64,000 bases of DNA from the NCBI RefSeq assembly GCF_030413635.1, contig NZ_CP129235.1, positions 2,046,001 to 2,110,000 on the forward strand, written 5' to 3'. The position numbers and the translations under genes are program-made. This document shows positions 32,625 to 41,667 of the stretch, piece after piece. The stretch comes from Planococcus shenhongbingii. Lineage in GTDB: Bacteria > Bacillota > Bacilli > Bacillales_A > Planococcaceae. Numbering within the stretch: position 1 is the first letter of the stretch; each line of letters opens with the position of its first letter. The notes below the pieces were generated by a model. That model was not told the DNA's origin and did no database searches. It was given only the letters and a program-made list of their open reading frames with translations.

Positions 32625-33776
32625 TTATTTTTTCATATTAGCCAATTGCTTCATTACTGCCGGAATTAGCGGGTCGCCAACCGGTAATTCCGAAACTTGT
32701 CGGAAAGCATCCTCATATCCTTTTTCTTTAACCAATTTCTGCAATTCGCGCGCTTCATCGTCTTCATCATTTTCGTAAAGCAGCACGGCTGCAATCACAG
32801 TGGCCAAGTTGACCGGCTCTTTTCCGGTTAGCTGCAGATAAAGGCTTGCCGGGCGGACCAAACGGTCATTACTTCCTAATTTCCGGATTGGACTTCTCCC
32901 GACACGTGTAACGAAGTCTGAAACATATGGATTTCGGAACCGGCCGATGATTTTCCGGGTATATGCTTCGTGCTGGGCACTGTCAAAATGATGCAATTGA
33001 ATCAGTACTTCTCCCGTTTCCCGAAGCACCCCTTGTAGAATGCGTTCAATTCCTTCATCATCCATCGCTTCATTGATCGTTTGATGTCCTCTATAGCGGC
33101 CTAAATAAGCTGGGACAGTATGGCCGGTATTCACTGTGAAAAGTTTGCGCTCTATATAAGGATTCAAATCATCCACGTAGGTGATGCCTTTTACGGGTGG
33201 CCGTTGCCCTTTGATTGCCGGCTGCTCAACAACCCATTCATAGTATGGCTCTACGGCTACGCCAAGCAGATCGCCGCTGCGCTGATCCGGGACTATCCGG
33301 TCTACAGCAGCATTGGGAAAGCCAATCAATTCGTCAGCCATGTTTCTTTCTTCCACGGATAAATGCTTATAGACATGTTCTTTCAACACAGAACTGCCAT
33401 TGATCATATTTTCACAGGCGATGACATTCAATGGCTCCGGGCGGTTCTGAAATCTTCTTTTCAACCCTTCAGCCAGCAACCCCGAAATCGCAGGCAGCAC
33501 ATTCGGTCCTACCGCTGCCGTGACAAGGTCTGCTTTGCTCAGAAATTCAGCTGCTTCTTCTGCATTCGACATGCTGTTGATGCCCCATACATTGTCGACC
33601 CGTATCACTTCTCTTTCCGTAGCCGATAAAGTGACTTCGTATTCTTTCTTTTCATTTAGTGCATTGATGACTGATTCGTTGACATCGAGAAAAAGCATGT
33701 TGTATCCCGATTGATTGAGTAGAAGGCCGATGAACCCCCGGCCGATGTTTCCTGCCCCGAAATGCACTGCCTGCAT
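32625..33776 (-). CDS. mtlD: Mannitol-1-phosphate 5-dehydrogenase
   Basis: A 383-residue NAD-dependent dehydrogenase that converts mannitol 1-phosphate to fructose 6-phosphate. The N-terminal dinucleotide-binding motif is HFGAGNIGRGFIG. The catalytic helix shows KLFTVNTGHTVPAYLG (K-x5-H/N-type polyol dehydrogenase signature). The length is that of the family (about 380). GGTGGGGTAA precedes the ATG. mtlF ends directly upstream with almost no gap, so the mtlA-mtlF-mtlD order forms one operon ending at the 32575 terminator. Confidence 0.96.
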   Translation of the reverse strand: MQAVHFGAGNIGRGFIGLLLNQSGYNMLFLDVNESVINALNEKKEYEVTLSATEREVIRVDNVWGINSMSNAEEAAEFLSKADLVTAAVGPNVLPAISGLLAEGLKRRFQNRPEPLNVIACENMINGSSVLKEHVYKHLSVEERNMADELIGFPNAAVDRIVPDQRSGDLLGVAVEPYYEWVVEQPAIKGQRPPVKGITYVDDLNPYIERKLFTVNTGHTVPAYLGRYRGHQTINEAMDDEGIERILQGVLRETGEVLIQLHHFDSAQHEAYTRKIIGRFRNPYVSDFVTRVGRSPIRKLGSNDRLVRPASLYLQLTGKEPVNLATVIAAVLLYENDEDDEARELQKLVKEKGYEDAFRQVSELPVGDPLIPAVMKQLANMKK

Positions 33777-34214
33777 TTACCCCACCTCGCTAAAGAGATC
33801 CAGGATTTCCTCTTCTGATCGGGCATTCAAAATTTTATCGATGTTTTCTTCTTCCGAACAGACAATTGCGATATTCGAAAGAATTTCTAGGTGCTCGTTC
33901 CCTTTTCCAGCAATCCCGATGAATATCTTAGCCAGATTGCCATCTCCAAAGTCAATTCCATCTGGTACAGTTACAACACAAATACCCGTTTCAAAGACAT
34001 TTTTTTTGGCATCTTCCGTACCATGCGGAATCGCCAGGAAGTTCCCCATATAAGTGGAAGCCATTTCTTCCCGTTCAAACATTTTATCGATATAACCGGC
34101 ATCGACATATCCTTGCCTTACAAGAATCTCTCCTGTGTATCGAATTGCTTCTTCTTTCCCGCTCAACGGCACATTCAATTTGATATTTTCTCTGCTCAAT
34201 ACTTCTTTCGCCAT
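33777..34214 (-). CDS. mtlF: PTS mannitol-specific EIIA component
   Basis: A cytosolic phosphocarrier of about 145 residues that passes phosphate from HPr to the EIIB domain of MtlA. The active-site His is in FLAIPHGTEDAKK. ATG 34214 is preferred (GGGAG eight bases upstream); the in-frame GTG 15 bases earlier is part of the ribosome binding site. It abuts mtlD. Confidence 0.94.
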   Translation of the reverse strand: MAKEVLSRENIKLNVPLSGKEEAIRYTGEILVRQGYVDAGYIDKMFEREEMASTYMGNFLAIPHGTEDAKKNVFETGICVVTVPDGIDFGDGNLAKIFIGIAGKGNEHLEILSNIAIVCSEEENIDKILNARSEEEILDLFSEVG

Positions 34215-34253
34215 CCAAATCACTCCCACTGGAATTTTTCTTTTAGATTGCTG

Positions 34254-35732
34254 CTACTGATTTTTCAAACGTCTCGCCAGCTTATCGTATTCCGGGCTGT
34301 TCATGAAATTCTCTACTGAAATATGTTCAGCATTCGGCAGTTTCGCTTTTGCTCGGTCAGTCAAATCTTTATGGGTAACTACGATGTCTGCATCTTCCGG
34401 AAGCTGGTTGATTGCTGTATTGGACACCGGTACATCGATACTTTCTTTTTTGAATTTGTTTCTGAGCAGCGAAGCCCCCATGGCACTTGATCCCATTCCG
34501 GCGTCGCAAGCGAAAACGACTTTTCGGATCTCTTCCGTGTTTTTAAGCGGAGCCGCATTGACCGGCTGAGTATTATCAGCTTCAACCCGGTCACCTGAAG
34601 TCATCCCCACAACTTCCTTCGCTGGTTTTGGAGTCAAGTAACCAGTTGCATCGCTTTTCTTGCCTTTCATTTCTTCCATTCTTCCCGCTGCCGACGCTAA
34701 ATCTTCATCTTCCACTTTGCTGGTTTTCAATACGACAGATGCAACAGCAAACGATACCGCTGCCGCTACGACCACTCCGGAAATGACGCCCAAGTAATTT
34801 CCTTGCGGCGTCAAAGCAAGCAATGCGAAAATGCTGCCGGGAGACGGTGTTGCCGGCAGACCGGCATTAAATACGGTAAATGTGAATACGCCGCTCATCC
34901 CGCCGGCAATTACAGCCAGAAGCAAAATGGGTTTCATTAAGACATATGGGAAATAAATTTCATGAATCCCGCCCAGGAATTGGATGATGGCTGCTCCTGG
35001 CGCGGACGCTTTTGAAATCCCTTTGCCGAATACCGAGAAAGCCAAAAGCACACCAAGCCCTGGACCTGGATTTGTCTCGAGCAGGAACAAAATGGATTTT
35101 CCTGCATCTGCCGCTTGTTCCACACCCAATGGGCTCAGAATCCCATGGTTAATGGCATTGTTCAAGAAGAGGATTTTCGCCGGTTCAATGATGATGCTCG
35201 CAAGCGGCAATAATCCCATATCGACAATCACTTCAACGCCATTGGCCAGTGTATTCGTCAACGTATTGACGATCGGCCCGACGAAGAAAACAGCGATTCC
35301 CGCCAGGAATGCCCCTAAAATACCAGCGGAAAAGTTATTATAAAGCATTTCAAAACCGACTCTGATTCTATGCTGGAACCAGCCGTCTATTAATTTCATC
35401 GCAAACCCGGCAAGCGGACCCATGATCATGGCTCCAAGGAACATCGGAATTTCAGCTCCGACAATAACCCCCATTGTTGCTATGGCCCCAAGTACACCAC
35501 CGCGAAAATCGTAGACGAGCCGCCCGCCTGTGAACCCGATCAATAAGGGCAACAAATATGTGATCATTGGGCCGACCAGCGAACCCAAAGTTTCATTCGG
35601 GAACCAGCCATCCGGTATGAACAAAGCAGTAATAAGACCCCAAGCAATAAAGGCACCGATATTTGGCATGATCATTCCACTCAAATAACTTCCGAAGCGC
35701 TGGATTCGCGCACGGACGCTTGCATCAGCCAT
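34254..35732 (-). CDS. mtlA: PTS mannitol-specific EIICB component
   Basis: The mannitol permease, about 492 residues. The N-terminal EIIC domain (roughly residues 15-340) has multiple membrane segments with GGIHEIYFPYVLMKP (the GIxE substrate site). A linker leads to a C-terminal EIIB domain whose phosphorylated Cys lies in VFACDAGMGSSAMGASLL. ATG 35732 has AGAGAGGGA at good spacing; a longer in-frame start to 35795 does not. EIIA is encoded separately as mtlF. No mtlR activator gene lies in this window. Confidence 0.96.
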   Translation of the reverse strand: MADASVRARIQRFGSYLSGMIMPNIGAFIAWGLITALFIPDGWFPNETLGSLVGPMITYLLPLLIGFTGGRLVYDFRGGVLGAIATMGVIVGAEIPMFLGAMIMGPLAGFAMKLIDGWFQHRIRVGFEMLYNNFSAGILGAFLAGIAVFFVGPIVNTLTNTLANGVEVIVDMGLLPLASIIIEPAKILFLNNAINHGILSPLGVEQAADAGKSILFLLETNPGPGLGVLLAFSVFGKGISKASAPGAAIIQFLGGIHEIYFPYVLMKPILLLAVIAGGMSGVFTFTVFNAGLPATPSPGSIFALLALTPQGNYLGVISGVVVAAAVSFAVASVVLKTSKVEDEDLASAAGRMEEMKGKKSDATGYLTPKPAKEVVGMTSGDRVEADNTQPVNAAPLKNTEEIRKVVFACDAGMGSSAMGASLLRNKFKKESIDVPVSNTAINQLPEDADIVVTHKDLTDRAKAKLPNAEHISVENFMNSPEYDKLARRLKNQ

Positions 35733-35951
35733 ATTAATCCCTCTCTTCTCCAATTTTATCAATGTCGATGATAAGTTCAGCCATACTGAAGGCATAAATA
35801 ATTGGGCTTAACAATTTGCCTGCCACTTCCTTTTGGCATACCGAATCTAAGAATGAAAAGGCCGACCGTATTACACGTTTTACCACCTCTACTCTCTTTT
35901 GAGTAAAATCTTAAAGTAGGTGCATGAATTCACTTAAATAGTAGCATATTC

Positions 35952-36162: not shown

Positions 36163-36199
36163 AAAAAACCCCCGGCATTAAACGAAATGCCAGAGGTAA
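36163..36199 (-). terminator. Terminator of the D-amino acid operon
   Basis: Minus strand ACCTCTGGCATT pairs with AATGCCGGGGGT, followed by TTTTTTC. Confidence 0.9.
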
Positions 36200-36236: not shown

Positions 36237-37313
36237 TCAGCTGAATGCTTCCTTAGCCACTTGCCCTTTTCTTCTCCGAAACCAGGCGATGACAATTGCC
36301 GCGATCAGCGTGAACCCTAGATAACCCATCACCGGATATACAGTTCCGACGAGCGTCACAAATCCGAAAAAGCTGGAAGCAAATGCTGCAGTGCCAAAAC
36401 CAATGACCGACACTTTGAATTTCGGGCTTTCAGACTTTACGATGCGCGCTGTGAAAGCATAGAGCATCCCGACGGCCGTGTTGTAGATCATGCCAAGCAA
36501 GATGATTGACATGAATGCTCCGATAAGAGGGCTGATATGGTTGGTCAATACCAGCATCGGCATCGGCACCGCTGCAATCTTCTTCAACTGTGTCAGCATC
36601 GATACATTGATCAGCAAGATCAGCAAACCAAGGCCCAATCCTCCAATGATCCCGCCCCATGCAGCAACTTTCTCATCTTTTACCGTTCCGCCCATGACCG
36701 TCATCATTGCAGCACCGGCAGCCAAATTATAAGAGACGTAAAGGATGGCACCCAGCAGCCAATGGGGAGCGGCTTGGCTGTTCGCAGCAGCAGCTGTCGC
36801 CGCATCGATTTCTGCAGCCGACATTTCGAAATTGAAAAGAGAATACGCATTTATGATAATGACGACGACCAGCAATACCGGAGTGAAAGCGCCAATCAGT
36901 GAAATCACTTTTTGGACATTCAGCATTACCGAAGCTATCACTAGAACGGCCATCAGTATATTCCCGACCGAACCGGGTATGCCGAATTGCTGTTCGAAAA
37001 TAGCACCAGATCCGGAAAACATGACGACCATTACGCCAAACAAGAAGAATGTAATGGCGACGTCAACGACCGGACTCAAATACTTGCCGCAAATATGGCG
37101 AATGGCATGCTGATGCGATTTTGTCTGAAGACGGCTGCCCAGTTGCGTCAGATTCATCCCAAGAAAAGCGAAAAGCGCCATGGCAATAAACGATCCGATA
37201 ATTCCATAAATCCCGAAACTCGTAAAGAATTGCAGAACTTCCTGTCCGGAAGCGAACCCTGCGCCAACGATTACACCGATAAAAGCACCGCCAATTTGAA
37301 AACTTTTTCTCAT
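36237..37313 (-). CDS. YkvI-family amino acid permease-like membrane protein
   Basis: A 358-residue protein with about ten helices. The N-terminal FIGVIVGAGFASGQEVLQFF (unwound G-rich helix) places it in the APC-superfamily YkvI group. It is the last gene of the five-gene operon, 30 bp after the racemase-like gene, with GGGAGA before the ATG. By context it probably takes up D-amino acids, N-acylamino acids or a related substrate. The family has, to my knowledge, no firmly proven substrate. Confidence 0.85.
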   Translation of the reverse strand: MRKSFQIGGAFIGVIVGAGFASGQEVLQFFTSFGIYGIIGSFIAMALFAFLGMNLTQLGSRLQTKSHQHAIRHICGKYLSPVVDVAITFFLFGVMVVMFSGSGAIFEQQFGIPGSVGNILMAVLVIASVMLNVQKVISLIGAFTPVLLVVVIIINAYSLFNFEMSAAEIDAATAAAANSQAAPHWLLGAILYVSYNLAAGAAMMTVMGGTVKDEKVAAWGGIIGGLGLGLLILLINVSMLTQLKKIAAVPMPMLVLTNHISPLIGAFMSIILLGMIYNTAVGMLYAFTARIVKSESPKFKVSVIGFGTAAFASSFFGFVTLVGTVYPVMGYLGFTLIAAIVIAWFRRRKGQVAKEAFS

Positions 37314-37342
37314 GTTCTTTCTCCCGTTTGATTAAACGTATT

Positions 37343-38479
37343 TTATTGTCCGGTGCCAGCTGCTGTTTGCTGTGTTTTGAAGATGAGCTCTTCAACGGTG
37401 AACTTGTCCATAGCTTTTTGATTGATAGCGTAGCCAATTCCATAAGCCTCGGGAACGGTGATATACCCATCTTCCACAATCACTTCCGGAGAAATGACAT
37501 CTTCTTCCCAGTAACGCGATGATCCGGCAGTGTCTCCTGGAAGGATGAAGTTCGGCAAAGTCGTGAGTGCAATATTATGTGCACGGCCGATTCCAGATTC
37601 GAGCATCCCGCCGCACCAAACCGGAATGCCTTGTTCCATGCAATAATCGTGGATTTTTTTCGCTTCCGTCAATCCGCCGACCCGGCCAATTTTAATATTG
37701 ATGATTTTGGTGCTGCCAAGCTCCACGGCTTTCCGGGTATCTTCCAATGAATGAATGCTTTCATCCAGGCAGATTGGCGTAACAAGTTCCGGCTGCAGTT
37801 TGGCGTGGTCGATAATATCGTCTGAAGCCAATGGCTGTTCGATCATTGTCAAATTGAATTCATCCAATTGTTTCAGCAAATCGATATCTTTCAGTCGGTA
37901 AGCCGAGTTGGCATCTGCCATCATCGGCACATCCGGGAATTTGGCACGAAGCTCCCGCATCACATTCACATCATAGCCCGGCTTGATTTTTACTTTGATC
38001 CGTTTATAGCCTTCTTCCACAAATCCAGCGACTGTATCGATCAACTCATTGACGTCTTCATGGATCCCGATGCTGATGCCGACTTCAATTTTATTGCGGG
38101 TGCCTCCGAGAGCTTCTGCGAGCGTCATTTTGTTGCGTTTCGCATAAAGGTCCCAAATGGCTCCTTCGACTGTCGACTTTGCCATATTGTTTTTGCGGAG
38201 ATGGCTGAATAGTTCACTGACTTCGTCCGGATGGCGGATGTCATTTTCAAATACGATCGGCACCAGGAAATCTCTGATCATGTGCATATTTGTTTCCAGC
38301 GTTTCCTCGCTATACCATGGAGAATGGAACGCTACCGATTCTCCCCAGCCTGAATTGCCGAGTTCATCTTTTGCTTCCAGCAATAAGAAGTCCTTTTCCT
38401 GGAATGTCCCGAAACTAGTGGTAAATGGTTTTTTCATCATCATCTTCATCTTCCGAATCCTGATTTCTGTAATTTTCAC
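37343..38479 (-). CDS. N-acyl(succinyl)amino acid racemase / o-succinylbenzoate synthase family enzyme
   Basis: A 378-residue enolase-superfamily (MLE subgroup) enzyme. Catalytic lysines are in KVKIKPG (KxK), metal ligands in MADANSAY (Asp), MIEQPL (Glu) and CLDES (Asp), and the second catalytic Lys in [23 protein letters not shown] is also conserved. The start is GTG, overlapping the acyltransferase stop codon (GTGA). Neighbours (acyltransferase, M20 deacylase) indicate N-succinylamino acid racemase rather than menaquinone synthesis: no other men genes are present. In the known Geobacillus pathway D-amino acids are succinylated, racemised and hydrolysed to L-amino acids. Confidence 0.9.
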
Positions 38480-39318
38480 TGCCTATCGCCTCTTTCTATT
38501 GGTTGTAATGGAATGGTCTTTGCCGGAACGAATTGATAATAATGGACGCTTTCCTCAGCCTTTCGGACACCGGTGACTGCGAACCCGGCTGCGAATAACT
38601 GCTGGAACACTGTCCGGATCTTCATGCGCCAGTCCATCGCCAGTTCAGGATCCAGTTTTTTAATCGTCTGGAAATCCTGTGGCACTGGCACTTCAACGCC
38701 TTCCGCACCGGAGAGAAATTCACTCTCATTAATTTCAAGTACCGGAAAACCATTCGGGGTCTGCGTGATTTGAAACGGAGTTTTATACTCAGCGATTTCG
38801 GGCACCCAAGCGTCTTCAACACGGTTGCTTGAAATCCACCATTCAATCTGCAGACGGTCAGTTGGCAGCCCGCGGTTTAAGCCATCATCCATTTCTCCGT
38901 AGCAGTCTTCAATATAAGTGGTGCTGATGCCGAATAATTTGGAGGTGTTGAGGTGCGCATTGCGGCTTTCCAATGGATCAAATGTCCAGGTGATTAAATC
39001 GTAGCCGATTTGCTGGGCGATTTTTCGTTGTTCCTGTTTCAGGCGTTTGCCGATGCCTTTCGACTGATATTCCGGATGGATGCCCATCATATGGGAACAA
39101 AGATAAGTTTTTCCGTCTTTAAACCCGGTAAAGCCATAGCAATAGCCGACCAGCTCTTCGCCGTCAAAAGCACCGACCAGAATTCCGCCATTTTTGGAAG
39201 CGGTAAATGTCTGGTGCGTCGGAACCGGCGACATGTCCCATACTTCGCGTTCGAGTTGTTGGATCAAGCGCATCTCCGCATTCGTTTCTAGTCTGCGAAT
39301 CATAATTCCGTCTGTCAT
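38476..39318 (-). CDS. GNAT acyltransferase, predicted D-amino acid N-succinyltransferase
   Basis: About 280 residues. The N-terminal half is a GNAT domain with acyl-CoA motif [20 protein letters not shown]. The C-terminal half continues with [21 protein letters not shown], typical of the long GNATs associated with N-acylamino acid racemases. It overlaps both neighbours by four bases or fewer; ATG 39318 has AAGGGA ten bases upstream. Predicted role: attach succinyl (or acetyl) from CoA to the amino group of D-amino acids. Confidence 0.85.
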
Positions 39319-39323
39319 GTCTG

Positions 39324-40460
39324 TCACTTCCCTTGTTCCAGATGTTCAAAAGTGCGTTGGACTGTACGGGCGAGAATCTCAATGCCGACGATCAAACTAT
39401 CCTGATTAAACGTCATCGCCGGATGGTGGAGGCCAGGAGCTAAATCGCAGCCAAGCCCAAGCATCGTTGCTTTGACTGAAGGGCGCTTCAGCGTATAAAA
39501 GTGAAAATCTTCTCCTCCAGGTGTAATAATTGGCGGTACTAAAAATTCTTCGCCTACAGTTTCCGCAATGGCCTGTCCCATAATTTCAACAGCCGTGTCA
39601 TCCACTTCAGCAGCCGCGATTTCTGCCACCACTTCATAAGGAATTTTCACTCCGGCCATTTCTGCCACAGCTTGCATCGCTTTAATGACTTGCGCAAATA
39701 ATTTATCCATGACACCGTTTGTTTGCGCACGCATATCAATGCTGAACACTGCATTTCCCGGAATGATATTTGCCGATTCACCGCCGGCCTGGAACATCGT
39801 CAATTTTGCTGAATGCGGGACCATCGGATTGATTTGGATGGAATGAATGGCCTGTACAAGAAGCGCCATCACTTCAATGGCATTTTGCCCTTCGTGCGGC
39901 CGTGCTCCATGTGCATCAGTTCCATGGATCGACCCTTTGAGCATTTTTGCGGATCCGTGCATGATTGCTGGAGATGCATAGCCATGGCTGATTTCTTGAA
40001 ACGGACGCAGATGGACGCCGTACAGAAAATCGATGTCGTCGACAATTCCTTTCTCGACAAATGACAGGGCGCCCGTGCCTTTTTCTTCTGCCGGCTGGAA
40101 AATCACTTTCAAGCGGCCTTTTTCCGGGATGCCAAGTTTTTTCAACGTAAGAAGTGCACCGACAGCAAGCGTCATATGCGCATCGTGTCCGCAGGAATGG
40201 TTGGCCTGATACTTTCCATCCACTTCCTGCCACAATGCATCGATGTCTGTACGGAGCCCGATACACGGCTCACCACTGCCCACTGTGACAACCAATCCCG
40301 TTGAATCATCGAAAGTCTGTACTTCAAATCCTTCACTTTCCAGCAGCTCTTTTAAATAGTTGGTGGTCTCAACTTCTTTCCAGCTGATTTCCGGATGTGT
40401 ATGCAAATGCTGGAATACCTCTTCCACCACCGGTTTTATTTCTTCTAGCACTGCTTTCAT
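39324..40460 (-). CDS. M20D-family amidohydrolase, predicted N-acyl-L-amino acid deacylase
   Basis: A 378-residue zinc peptidase-like hydrolase. Motifs are HTHPEISWKE, SCGHDAHM, QPAEEKGTG, HGTDAHGARPHEG and GGEDFHFY: the full set of metal and catalytic residues. Its start overlaps the RpiR stop codon (ATGA), with GGGGGAG upstream. In the operon it would remove the acyl group from the L-configured N-acylamino acid, pulling the racemase equilibrium toward free L-amino acid. Confidence 0.92.
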   Translation of the reverse strand: MKAVLEEIKPVVEEVFQHLHTHPEISWKEVETTNYLKELLESEGFEVQTFDDSTGLVVTVGSGEPCIGLRTDIDALWQEVDGKYQANHSCGHDAHMTLAVGALLTLKKLGIPEKGRLKVIFQPAEEKGTGALSFVEKGIVDDIDFLYGVHLRPFQEISHGYASPAIMHGSAKMLKGSIHGTDAHGARPHEGQNAIEVMALLVQAIHSIQINPMVPHSAKLTMFQAGGESANIIPGNAVFSIDMRAQTNGVMDKLFAQVIKAMQAVAEMAGVKIPYEVVAEIAAAEVDDTAVEIMGQAIAETVGEEFLVPPIITPGGEDFHFYTLKRPSVKATMLGLGCDLAPGLHHPAMTFNQDSLIVGIEILARTVQRTFEHLEQGK

Positions 40461-41317
40461 TGACGATCTCCCCCTTCCATAAATAAGGAATCACTGTCCA
40501 AAGCCTGATAATCTTCTTGCCGTTTTCGGAACTTTCCTTTGCCTTTCACCACGACTCCCGCTACCAGCGCGTTTAGAAAGGAAAATAATGTCGCAGTCGC
40601 GTCAAGCGTTGACTTGTTTGGCGAATAAATCGGAAACAGCACATCGCTATGCTGTTGGATTGGTGCCAATTGGGAATCTGTCACGCCAATGATAAAGACA
40701 CCCTGTTGTTTTGCCAGTTCCGCAATCCGGATTGGTTGTTTCAAATATCGATGGAAGGAAATGGCGATCAAAACGGAATTGCTGTCCATTTCACTGAGTA
40801 TCTGGATAATGTCTTCCGTTTCTGGACGGATCTGGCGCACTTTTCCTCTAACAAGATTGAGCGTAAATGTAAGCCAATGTGCTGCCGCAAATGATGAACG
40901 GAGCCCCAATATATAGACAGTGTCCGCTTTCGCTAATTTTTCAACCGCGGTTTCATAATGTTTTTCATCAATCTGTTTCATCGTCGTAGAAATGGCTGAC
41001 CGGTCGCGCTCCATTACTTCTTCTAAAAAATGAGGCTGCTGCTCTAAATCCATTTTGGATTGCTGGTAGGCATCCAAGCTGCTTTCTTTAGAAAGCAATT
41101 GCTCCCGGATGGCCTTTTGCAGCTCCGCATAGCCGGACAGTTCAAGGCTGTAGCAAAAACGAATTACCGTGGTTTCACTGACGCCTATGGAATCTCCAAC
41201 ATCCTGAGCCGGGTCAAGGGCTATTTTTCTCGGGTTGTCCAAGACATAGGTAGCCACTTTTTTCTGGCTTTTTGATAAGTCGCTGTATCGCTCTTGAATC
41301 AATTCCGATAATTTCAT
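40457..41317 (-). CDS. RpiR-family transcriptional regulator
   Basis: A 286-residue regulator. The N-terminal HTH_6 domain (DVGDSIGVSETTVIRFCYSL) is followed by an SIS domain (TVYILGLRSSFAAAHWL; VLIAISFHRYLKQPIRIAELAKQQ) that in other members binds a phosphosugar. The replacement of sugar genes by amino acid genes here suggests a different effector. It is the first gene of its operon. A 20-bp palindrome 41-60 bp upstream of the ATG is a candidate autoregulatory site. Confidence 0.9.
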   Translation of the reverse strand: MKLSELIQERYSDLSKSQKKVATYVLDNPRKIALDPAQDVGDSIGVSETTVIRFCYSLELSGYAELQKAIREQLLSKESSLDAYQQSKMDLEQQPHFLEEVMERDRSAISTTMKQIDEKHYETAVEKLAKADTVYILGLRSSFAAAHWLTFTLNLVRGKVRQIRPETEDIIQILSEMDSNSVLIAISFHRYLKQPIRIAELAKQQGVFIIGVTDSQLAPIQQHSDVLFPIYSPNKSTLDATATLFSFLNALVAGVVVKGKGKFRKRQEDYQALDSDSLFMEGGDRQ

Positions 41318-41357
41318 AATATCTCCCTTTTGAAGTTAAGACGTCTTTTATTTACCA

Positions 41358-41377
41358 AATGAAGTTTAAGCTTCATT
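41358..41377. promoter_or_regulatory. Candidate RpiR operator
   Basis: Inverted repeat AATGAAG TTTAAG CTTCATT, perfect in its 7-bp arms, upstream of the RpiR-led operon. Confidence 0.5.
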
Positions 41378-41667
41378 AAAGATTTTATTTAATTTATCAC
41401 ACAATTCTAAAGAGTGCAATATACTGCATACAATTTTTAAATATTTTTATTGTTAAAAATTTTAAAGTGGATTTACTTGCAGAGCGTAAAGAAAGCAGGG
41501 AAAACTTCAAAAGAAAAAGTAGCTTGAAGAGTACTGTGGATGCACAACTTATAATGAAAATAAAATTCTGCATATATGATGGCGTTGAACTATTAAATGC
41601 ATTAAGAAAGGGCAGATTAAAAAAATCATGAAAGATCCGTCTAATATTTCTATTCAGATTCAACAAG

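Follow-up and report, generated by a model that had tools for sequence, protein, structure and literature searches.

A conserved Planococcus operon for probable D- to L-amino acid conversion, with a candidate RpiR-family repressor and a putative YkvI-type transporter

A one-way route from D- to L-amino acids is reportedly known from Geobacillus kaustophilus, where Sakai et al. (2006) are said to have described an N-succinylamino acid racemase (NSAR) pathway made up of a GNAT-family N-succinyltransferase, the racemase and an M20-family L-desuccinylase; to our knowledge, the published description of this pathway includes no RpiR regulator, operator or YkvI protein. D-amino acid use by the DgcN/DgcA pathway likewise depends on an acyltransferase and an N-acyl-amino acid racemase of the enolase superfamily, and the murein-peptide operon ykfABCD of Bacillus subtilis joins an enolase-superfamily dipeptide epimerase to peptide uptake and is not known to include a GNAT or an RpiR gene. 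Here we analyzed a 64,000-nt stretch of the Planococcus shenhongbingii genome (the window; contig NZ_CP129235.1, positions 2,046,001 to 2,110,000), in which five tightly linked genes, all on the minus strand at 36237-41317, encode in order an RpiR-family regulator, an M20 amidohydrolase, a GNAT acyltransferase, an NSAR-like racemase and a YkvI-family membrane protein. From their sequences, we consider it probable that they form an inducible operon for D- to L-amino acid conversion, controlled by the RpiR protein as repressor and supplied through YkvI.

The five genes constitute one operon. Genes 1 to 4 overlap by 4 nt at each of their three junctions, as calculated from the coordinates, and a gap of 29 bp separates the NSAR and YkvI genes, in agreement with the initial annotation of this DNA, which described the genes as overlapping or about 30 bp apart; the enzyme families named there were also recovered by Pfam and NCBIfam searches. 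The first gene product (40457-41317, 286 aa), a proposed repressor of its own operon, matches both HTH_6 and SIS of Pfam above the cut-offs, as expected of the RpiR/MurR family. The M20 amidohydrolase (39324-40460, 378 aa), a proposed N-acyl-L-amino acid deacylase, matches Peptidase_M20 and M20_dimer of Pfam and, above its cut-off, TIGR01891 of NCBIfam, and its residues C90, H92, E125, E126, H150 and H346, which we take to be the metal and catalytic residues, are kept in 72/72 sequences. The GNAT protein (38476-39327, 283 aa), a proposed D-amino acid N-acyltransferase, consists of Acetyltransf_1 and an extra C-terminal part and is encoded by a single copy in the genome. The racemase (37343-38479, 378 aa), a proposed N-acylamino acid racemase of the NSAR/OSBS subfamily (OSBS, o-succinylbenzoate synthase) of the enolase superfamily, matches MR_MLE_N/C of Pfam, and N-acylamino acid racemases are among its closest PDB relatives. 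Its residues K162, K164, D189, E214, D239, K263 and R266 are kept in all 81 sequences (the window and 80 relatives), so that both catalytic lysines and the metal ligands are present, and the acyltransferase and deacylase of an NSAR-type D- to L-conversion pathway adjoin it.

Relatives of the operon were sought by GNAT in named genomes, which gave 418 places; the best 80 by GNAT similarity (47-80% identity) were kept, and gene orders were scored within 4.5 kb, so that the frequencies describe close relatives and the presence of GNAT is built into the sample. The order RpiR-M20-GNAT-NSAR-YkvI occurs in 49/80 loci and, with two YkvI genes, in another 4/80, giving 53/80. Other loci read M20-GNAT-NSAR (10), GNAT-NSAR (5), RpiR-GNAT-NSAR-YkvI without M20 (4) or M20-GNAT-NSAR-YkvI (1); RpiR leads in 64/80 loci, and YkvI follows NSAR in 58/80. 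With the five-gene order in 53/80 loci, RpiR and YkvI count as regular parts of the operon. The neighborhood search proposed with the initial annotation thereby bears out its placing of RpiR and YkvI in a conversion operon, as conserved members and, for RpiR, with a matching operator. Their addition, regarded there as the novel part, is supported as such, but it is not peculiar to this genome and recurs in Planococcaceae, Bacillaceae and Aneurinibacillus; the taxa include Planococcus, Sporosarcina, Psychrobacillus, Lysinibacillus, Cytobacillus, other Bacillaceae and Aneurinibacillus. Pairwise protein distances among RpiR, M20, GNAT and YkvI are correlated across 54 complete sets including the window (Spearman 0.65-0.84). 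GNAT is itself patchy: matches at E <= 0.001, including weak ones, were found in 159/250 genomes, and the listed genomes of the same genus comprise nine with a strong match (own included), two with a weak match and 20 with none, with 71 further match-less genomes outside that list. A 38-residue M20 remnant lies between RpiR and GNAT at L025:9874-9987, where the deacylase gene has decayed, and loci L023, L027 and L083 are without M20. The records of L022, L045 and L082 are titled Arthrobacter, Paenibacillus and Pseudomonas, while their operons are Sporosarcina- or Cytobacillus-like, and these names look doubtful.

Upstream of RpiR, we found a palindromic operator motif (TGAAGTnnnnACTTCA), whose profile, built from 40 of the RpiR-first loci, matches before RpiR in 63/64 of them. 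For a held-out test, 17 sites (RpiR-first loci, L014-L040) were used to build a profile, which finds a site in 42/43 RpiR-first loci of L041-L093, where 0.012 hits per 410-nt window are expected by chance (background of 30 hits over the 1,027,825 positions in these held-out loci); the missed locus, L070, has two operator sites between RpiR and M20, genes that are 331 bp apart there. Of the 16 loci without a leading RpiR, one, L058, carries the operator (L058:8598-8617) within 400 nt before its first gene; tblastn finds no RpiR in that locus. In the window, predicted operator site 1 (41358-41377; minus strand, AATGAAGCTTAAACTTCATT) lies just downstream of the predicted transcription start, before RpiR, and a weaker predicted site 2 (41329-41348, score 13.6) lies 29 bp from it. 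A second weaker site (score >= 9) recurs downstream of site 1 at +28 in 4, +29 in 24, +30 in 7 and +31 in 2 of the 64 sequences, and at no other offset tested (-40 to -20 and +20 to +60) does any of the 64 reach this score.

The predicted extended -10 promoter (41391-41419, minus strand) consists of TTGCAC (41419-41414), a 17-nt spacer ending in TGA, and TAAATT (41396-41391). A sigma-70 match, TTTAGA/TAAAAT at 41411-41382, was passed over in favor of this TG-containing promoter because the TTGCAC-type form recurs in all aligned sequences; the general form TTGnnn-17-TGn-TAnnnT is present in each of the 64 upstream sequences, a count without a shuffle control. Since the extended -10 promoter shortly precedes site 1 in all 64 sequences, both predicted sites are placed in the leader, downstream of the promoter, which is the layout of a repressor. 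A preprint (PMC12713135) puts forward MurR tetramers as spanning two neighboring sites that overlap the promoter and describes a degenerate half-site flanking the NanR site, SpNanR being an activator with sites upstream of its promoter.

A search of the own genome with TGAAGN6CTTCA returned 18 places, compared with 4 for a control pattern, and the window site has the top score (25.7; next 19.8). The runner-up, at 520946, lies inside a terminator-like hairpin 3' of a gene end, and further operator targets may be present among the other 16 places. A lone high score is not proof of an operator, because L037 and L038, two loci without RpiR, have palindromes scoring 18-18.5 within M20; these lie 582 nt past the start of that gene and are probably due to chance. 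A CodY-like box (AATTTTCWGAAAATT-like, <=3 mismatches) is also found upstream in 39/64 sequences, compared with 5.3% of Markov controls, and mostly abuts the -35 element; it does so in many Bacillaceae loci (L041-L093) and is poor in Planococcus (the window and L014-L018, 4-5 mismatches). At the other end of the operon, 3' of ykvI, a Rho-independent terminator-like hairpin is predicted at 36168-36197 on the minus strand, based on its position and its 12-pair stem (the scan gave 12 terminator-like sites, compared with 8.3 +/- 3.1 in shuffles). Past it, on the same strand at 32625-35795, lie genes for phosphotransferase system (PTS) EIIC/B and EIIA, assigned by Pfam, and a dehydrogenase, of mannitol-1-phosphate type by sequence. 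Read-through from the operon into these genes was rejected in view of the terminator-like hairpin between them.

The operon, its gene order, the operator, the kept catalytic residues and the altered SIS loop are evident from the sequence itself. In the mechanism that we infer, for substrates, acyl group, effector, repression and import alike, YkvI would import the substrate, most likely a D-amino acid, which GNAT would acylate from an acyl-CoA, by analogy with Geobacillus succinyl-CoA. The racemase would interconvert the N-acyl-D and N-acyl-L forms, and an L-specific M20 deacylase would free the L-amino acid, so that the conversion would run one way and consume one acyl-CoA. The RpiR repressor, perhaps a tetramer that bridges the two, would bind the 16-bp palindrome and the weaker site 29 bp on, both of which closely follow the promoter. 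It would release the DNA when an amino-acid-type effector, either a D-amino acid or an N-acyl amino acid, builds up and takes, at Arg190/Tyr191, the position of a sugar phosphate.

The same genome has a second RpiR-linked operon, L011:8315-17334 (3604314-3613333 of the own genome), in which rpiR is divergent from oppABCDF-NSAR-M20; it contains no GNAT, and Opp peptide-type ABC importer genes stand where YkvI stands in the window operon (oppA, oppB, RpiR and M20 were named by Pfam, and oppC, D and F by reading). A weak operator-like site lies between the second RpiR and oppA, at L011:16444. Relatives of this RpiR are present in 13/121 family genomes (own included), at 16 places, of which 13 were examined (leaving aside two of the own genome and G055) together with a further locus, L131. 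NSAR was found near the second-type RpiR in 10/13 loci and M20 in 10/13, each locus having at least one of the two. OppABCDF is present in four of the 13 (L118-L121), and six loci (L123-L128) are divergent from a carrier of 462-470 residues, which belongs to the DcuC family by Pfam in L123, L124 and L126, with weak AbgT matches, and resembles these over residues 1-80 in L125, L127 and L128. L122 has a similar carrier on its downstream side, and an M19 dipeptidase paired with a DUF819 membrane protein is divergent from the RpiR-M20 pair (L122:7247-9479). L129, by Pfam, and L130, by eye, read RpiR-GNAT-NSAR-M19 dipeptidase, and M19 dipeptidases occur in other NSAR or RpiR-M20 loci as well. At L075:3808-8829, a hydantoinase B gene, two genes of the M19-dipeptidase cluster and a proline racemase gene (Pfam) lie directly upstream of M20-GNAT-NSAR, and L076 shares these neighbor clusters. 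Across these loci, the predicted transporter varies and the stereochemical core stays.

These operons bear on an alternative in which ready-made N-acyl amino acids are scavenged: YkvI would import the N-acyl-D/L forms, NSAR would racemize them and M20 would deacylate them, leaving GNAT a side role such as D-amino acid detoxification. Such uptake is possible because some NSAR/M20 operons are without GNAT, including the second one here, with its Opp-type importer. In L123, L125 and L128, moreover, RpiR-M20-NSAR is divergent from the carrier, which is of the DcuC family with a weak AbgT match in L123 and similar over the first 80 residues in L125 and L128; AbgT carries p-aminobenzoyl-glutamate. 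However, NSAR directly follows GNAT in 80/80 loci (gaps of -164 to +58 nt), a tight linkage that is not built into the GNAT-chosen set, and a one-way route from free D-amino acids requires an acyltransferase, so that we regard scavenging as unlikely for the window operon.

YkvI (36237-37313, 358 aa), the proposed substrate transporter, has no match among Pfam or NCBIfam models and is named from its relatives, the nearest of which is from Planococcus shenhongbingii (96% identity). It was modeled with a LeuT/APC transporter fold, which places it among the predicted carriers of that fold. LeuT/APC folds include exchangers, and the fold match gives no direction, so YkvI might export the product or toxic D-amino acids rather than import the substrate. 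The sister operons, in which an Opp-type system of importer type, with a solute-binding protein, stands together with NSAR and M20, argue against this, and we consider export distinctly improbable. A YkvI paralog (54% over 344 residues) at L010:1453-2529 adjoins a gene that is acyl-CoA-dehydrogenase-like by sequence, and no NSAR was seen in the 4 kb covered there.

The effector of the RpiR protein was considered from its SIS domain. According to PMC12713135, SpNanR contacts phosphate through the side chains of Ser135, Ser179, Ser181 and Thr184 and through the Leu180 backbone, and the regulators compared in that work share a highly conserved phosphate loop. Aligned to 4ivn and 8ju9, the window RpiR keeps S142 (Ser135) and S187 (Ser179), whereas H189 replaces Ser181, L192 replaces Thr184 and R190 replaces a loop glycine, the correspondence of positions being inferred from pairwise alignment. 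The loop reads S187-F-H-R190-Y191 and departs from the S-x-S-G-x-T loop with an upstream Ser that marks sugar-phosphate RpiR proteins. Among 65 RpiR sequences, R190 and Y191 are invariant (65/65), position 189 is never Ser, and position 192 is Thr in 1/65. The two other RpiR proteins of the genome also have F-x-R-Y in this loop, the third being encoded at L101:889-1731 (3492017), so the altered loop marks a branch and not a lone oddity. This branch is probable to sense a non-sugar effector, and the loop and gene context suggest an amino acid derivative, an idea of the initial annotation that for RpiR gains sequence support from the altered loop. An opposing reading, in which the RpiR effector is a sugar phosphate and the pathway is thereby coupled to the turnover of sugars or of the cell wall, for example through the adjacent mannitol-type PTS or muropeptide recycling, draws on the PTS genes downstream of the operon, on the counterparts of two phosphate ligands, S142 and S187, being kept in 63/65 and 59/65, and on the characterized RpiR regulators discussed in PMC12713135, which bind phosphorylated sugars. 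It is very unlikely, considering that two of the four side-chain ligands are replaced, that Arg takes the place of the loop glycine in every sequence, and that the PTS genes lie past the terminator and, since their neighbor clusters (c94-c96) rank below a cluster seen in 5 loci, stand beside at most five of the 80.

The 3.98-Mb genome has three genes above the TIGR01928 (o-succinylbenzoate synthase) cut-off: the window racemase, for which this is the best NCBIfam match, one at 1337548, and one at 3605709 inside the second amino-acid-type operon. The gene at 1337548 lies directly 3' of menE in a menF-D-H-B-E-C cluster (G000:C1 1331309-1338576; menE and the TIGR01928 gene named by NCBIfam, menF, D, H and B by reading translations). 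Although the NSAR/OSBS subfamily has both activities and the window racemase bears this model's name, its service in menaquinone synthesis as a working o-succinylbenzoate synthase is extremely improbable and was rejected, because the separate men cluster has its own menC and the window racemase is partnered with acyl-transfer and deacylase families. The o-succinylbenzoate synthase label is thus probably wrong in function for 37343-38479, and the assignment of the operon to D- to L-conversion in the initial annotation is supported, its racemase being neither the sole menC nor linked to the men cluster and keeping its catalytic residues.

Several points weigh against an inducible conversion operon with repression by RpiR and uptake by YkvI. 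The functions of all five proteins are read from sequence throughout, and the substrate cannot be read from the GNAT fold, the structure search having returned generic GNAT matches only. YkvI is dispensable, since RpiR-M20-GNAT-NSAR occurs without it in 7/80 loci (one, L055, ending at a contig edge), and the NSAR distances agree only moderately with those of the other four proteins (Spearman 0.43-0.54, 54 sets). Repression is deduced from site position, while SpNanR of the same family is an activator, and the CodY box of the window itself is poor (4 mismatches), though codY is present in the genome. PMC7431475 states that NSAR enzymes tolerate many N-acyl groups, and succinyl is hence not forced. 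With these points in mind, a broader proposal could well hold but is put forward tentatively: an RpiR branch that has exchanged its sugar-phosphate pocket for an Arg-Tyr pocket sensing D- or N-acyl amino acids would, with a two-site operator, control operons that pair an NSAR and M20 core, with or without GNAT, with interchangeable YkvI, Opp-type or DcuC/AbgT-like carriers, and uptake of D- or N-acyl amino acids would be the first function of YkvI.

The analysis thus proposes a function for an uncharacterized membrane family and, for an RpiR branch outside the sugar-phosphate rule, a class of effector, and it offers a precise 20-bp predicted operator that is directly testable. If correct, it would show how Bacillales of this kind sense and recover D-amino acids. 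Given the TIGR01928 name, racemase genes of the window type may sit under menaquinone synthesis in other Bacillales.

Compared with described systems, the window racemase scores 118 of 400 bits on the DgcA model NF042940, far under its cut-off, and the acyltransferase and regulator of the DgcN/DgcA pathway differ from those of the window. An L-Ala-D/L-Glu epimerase (1jpm) is among the PDB relatives of the window racemase. The operon has the same three enzyme families as the NSAR pathway of G. kaustophilus, for which an NSAR/L-succinylase system producing L-amino acids is reported in PMC7431475. With MurR, NanR and RccR, as described in PMC12713135, the window RpiR has in common HTH_6 and SIS domains, a palindromic operator and, as proposed for MurR, a second adjacent site at the promoter; unlike them, it has an altered phosphate loop, an invariant Arg-Tyr and an operon of acyl-amino-acid enzymes, and its predicted sites lie downstream of the -10 element, whereas those of MurR lie over the promoter. 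B. subtilis YkvI shares the family name and membrane protein class of the window protein, and our search of the open-access literature found no published function or transport role for it. In the same literature, mostly judged by listing, we found no paper on the regulator or transporter of an NSAR operon. The enzymes are those of a known pathway, and what is new is the predicted operator, an RpiR branch whose effector is probably not a sugar, the regular pairing with YkvI and the swapping of one transporter type for another.

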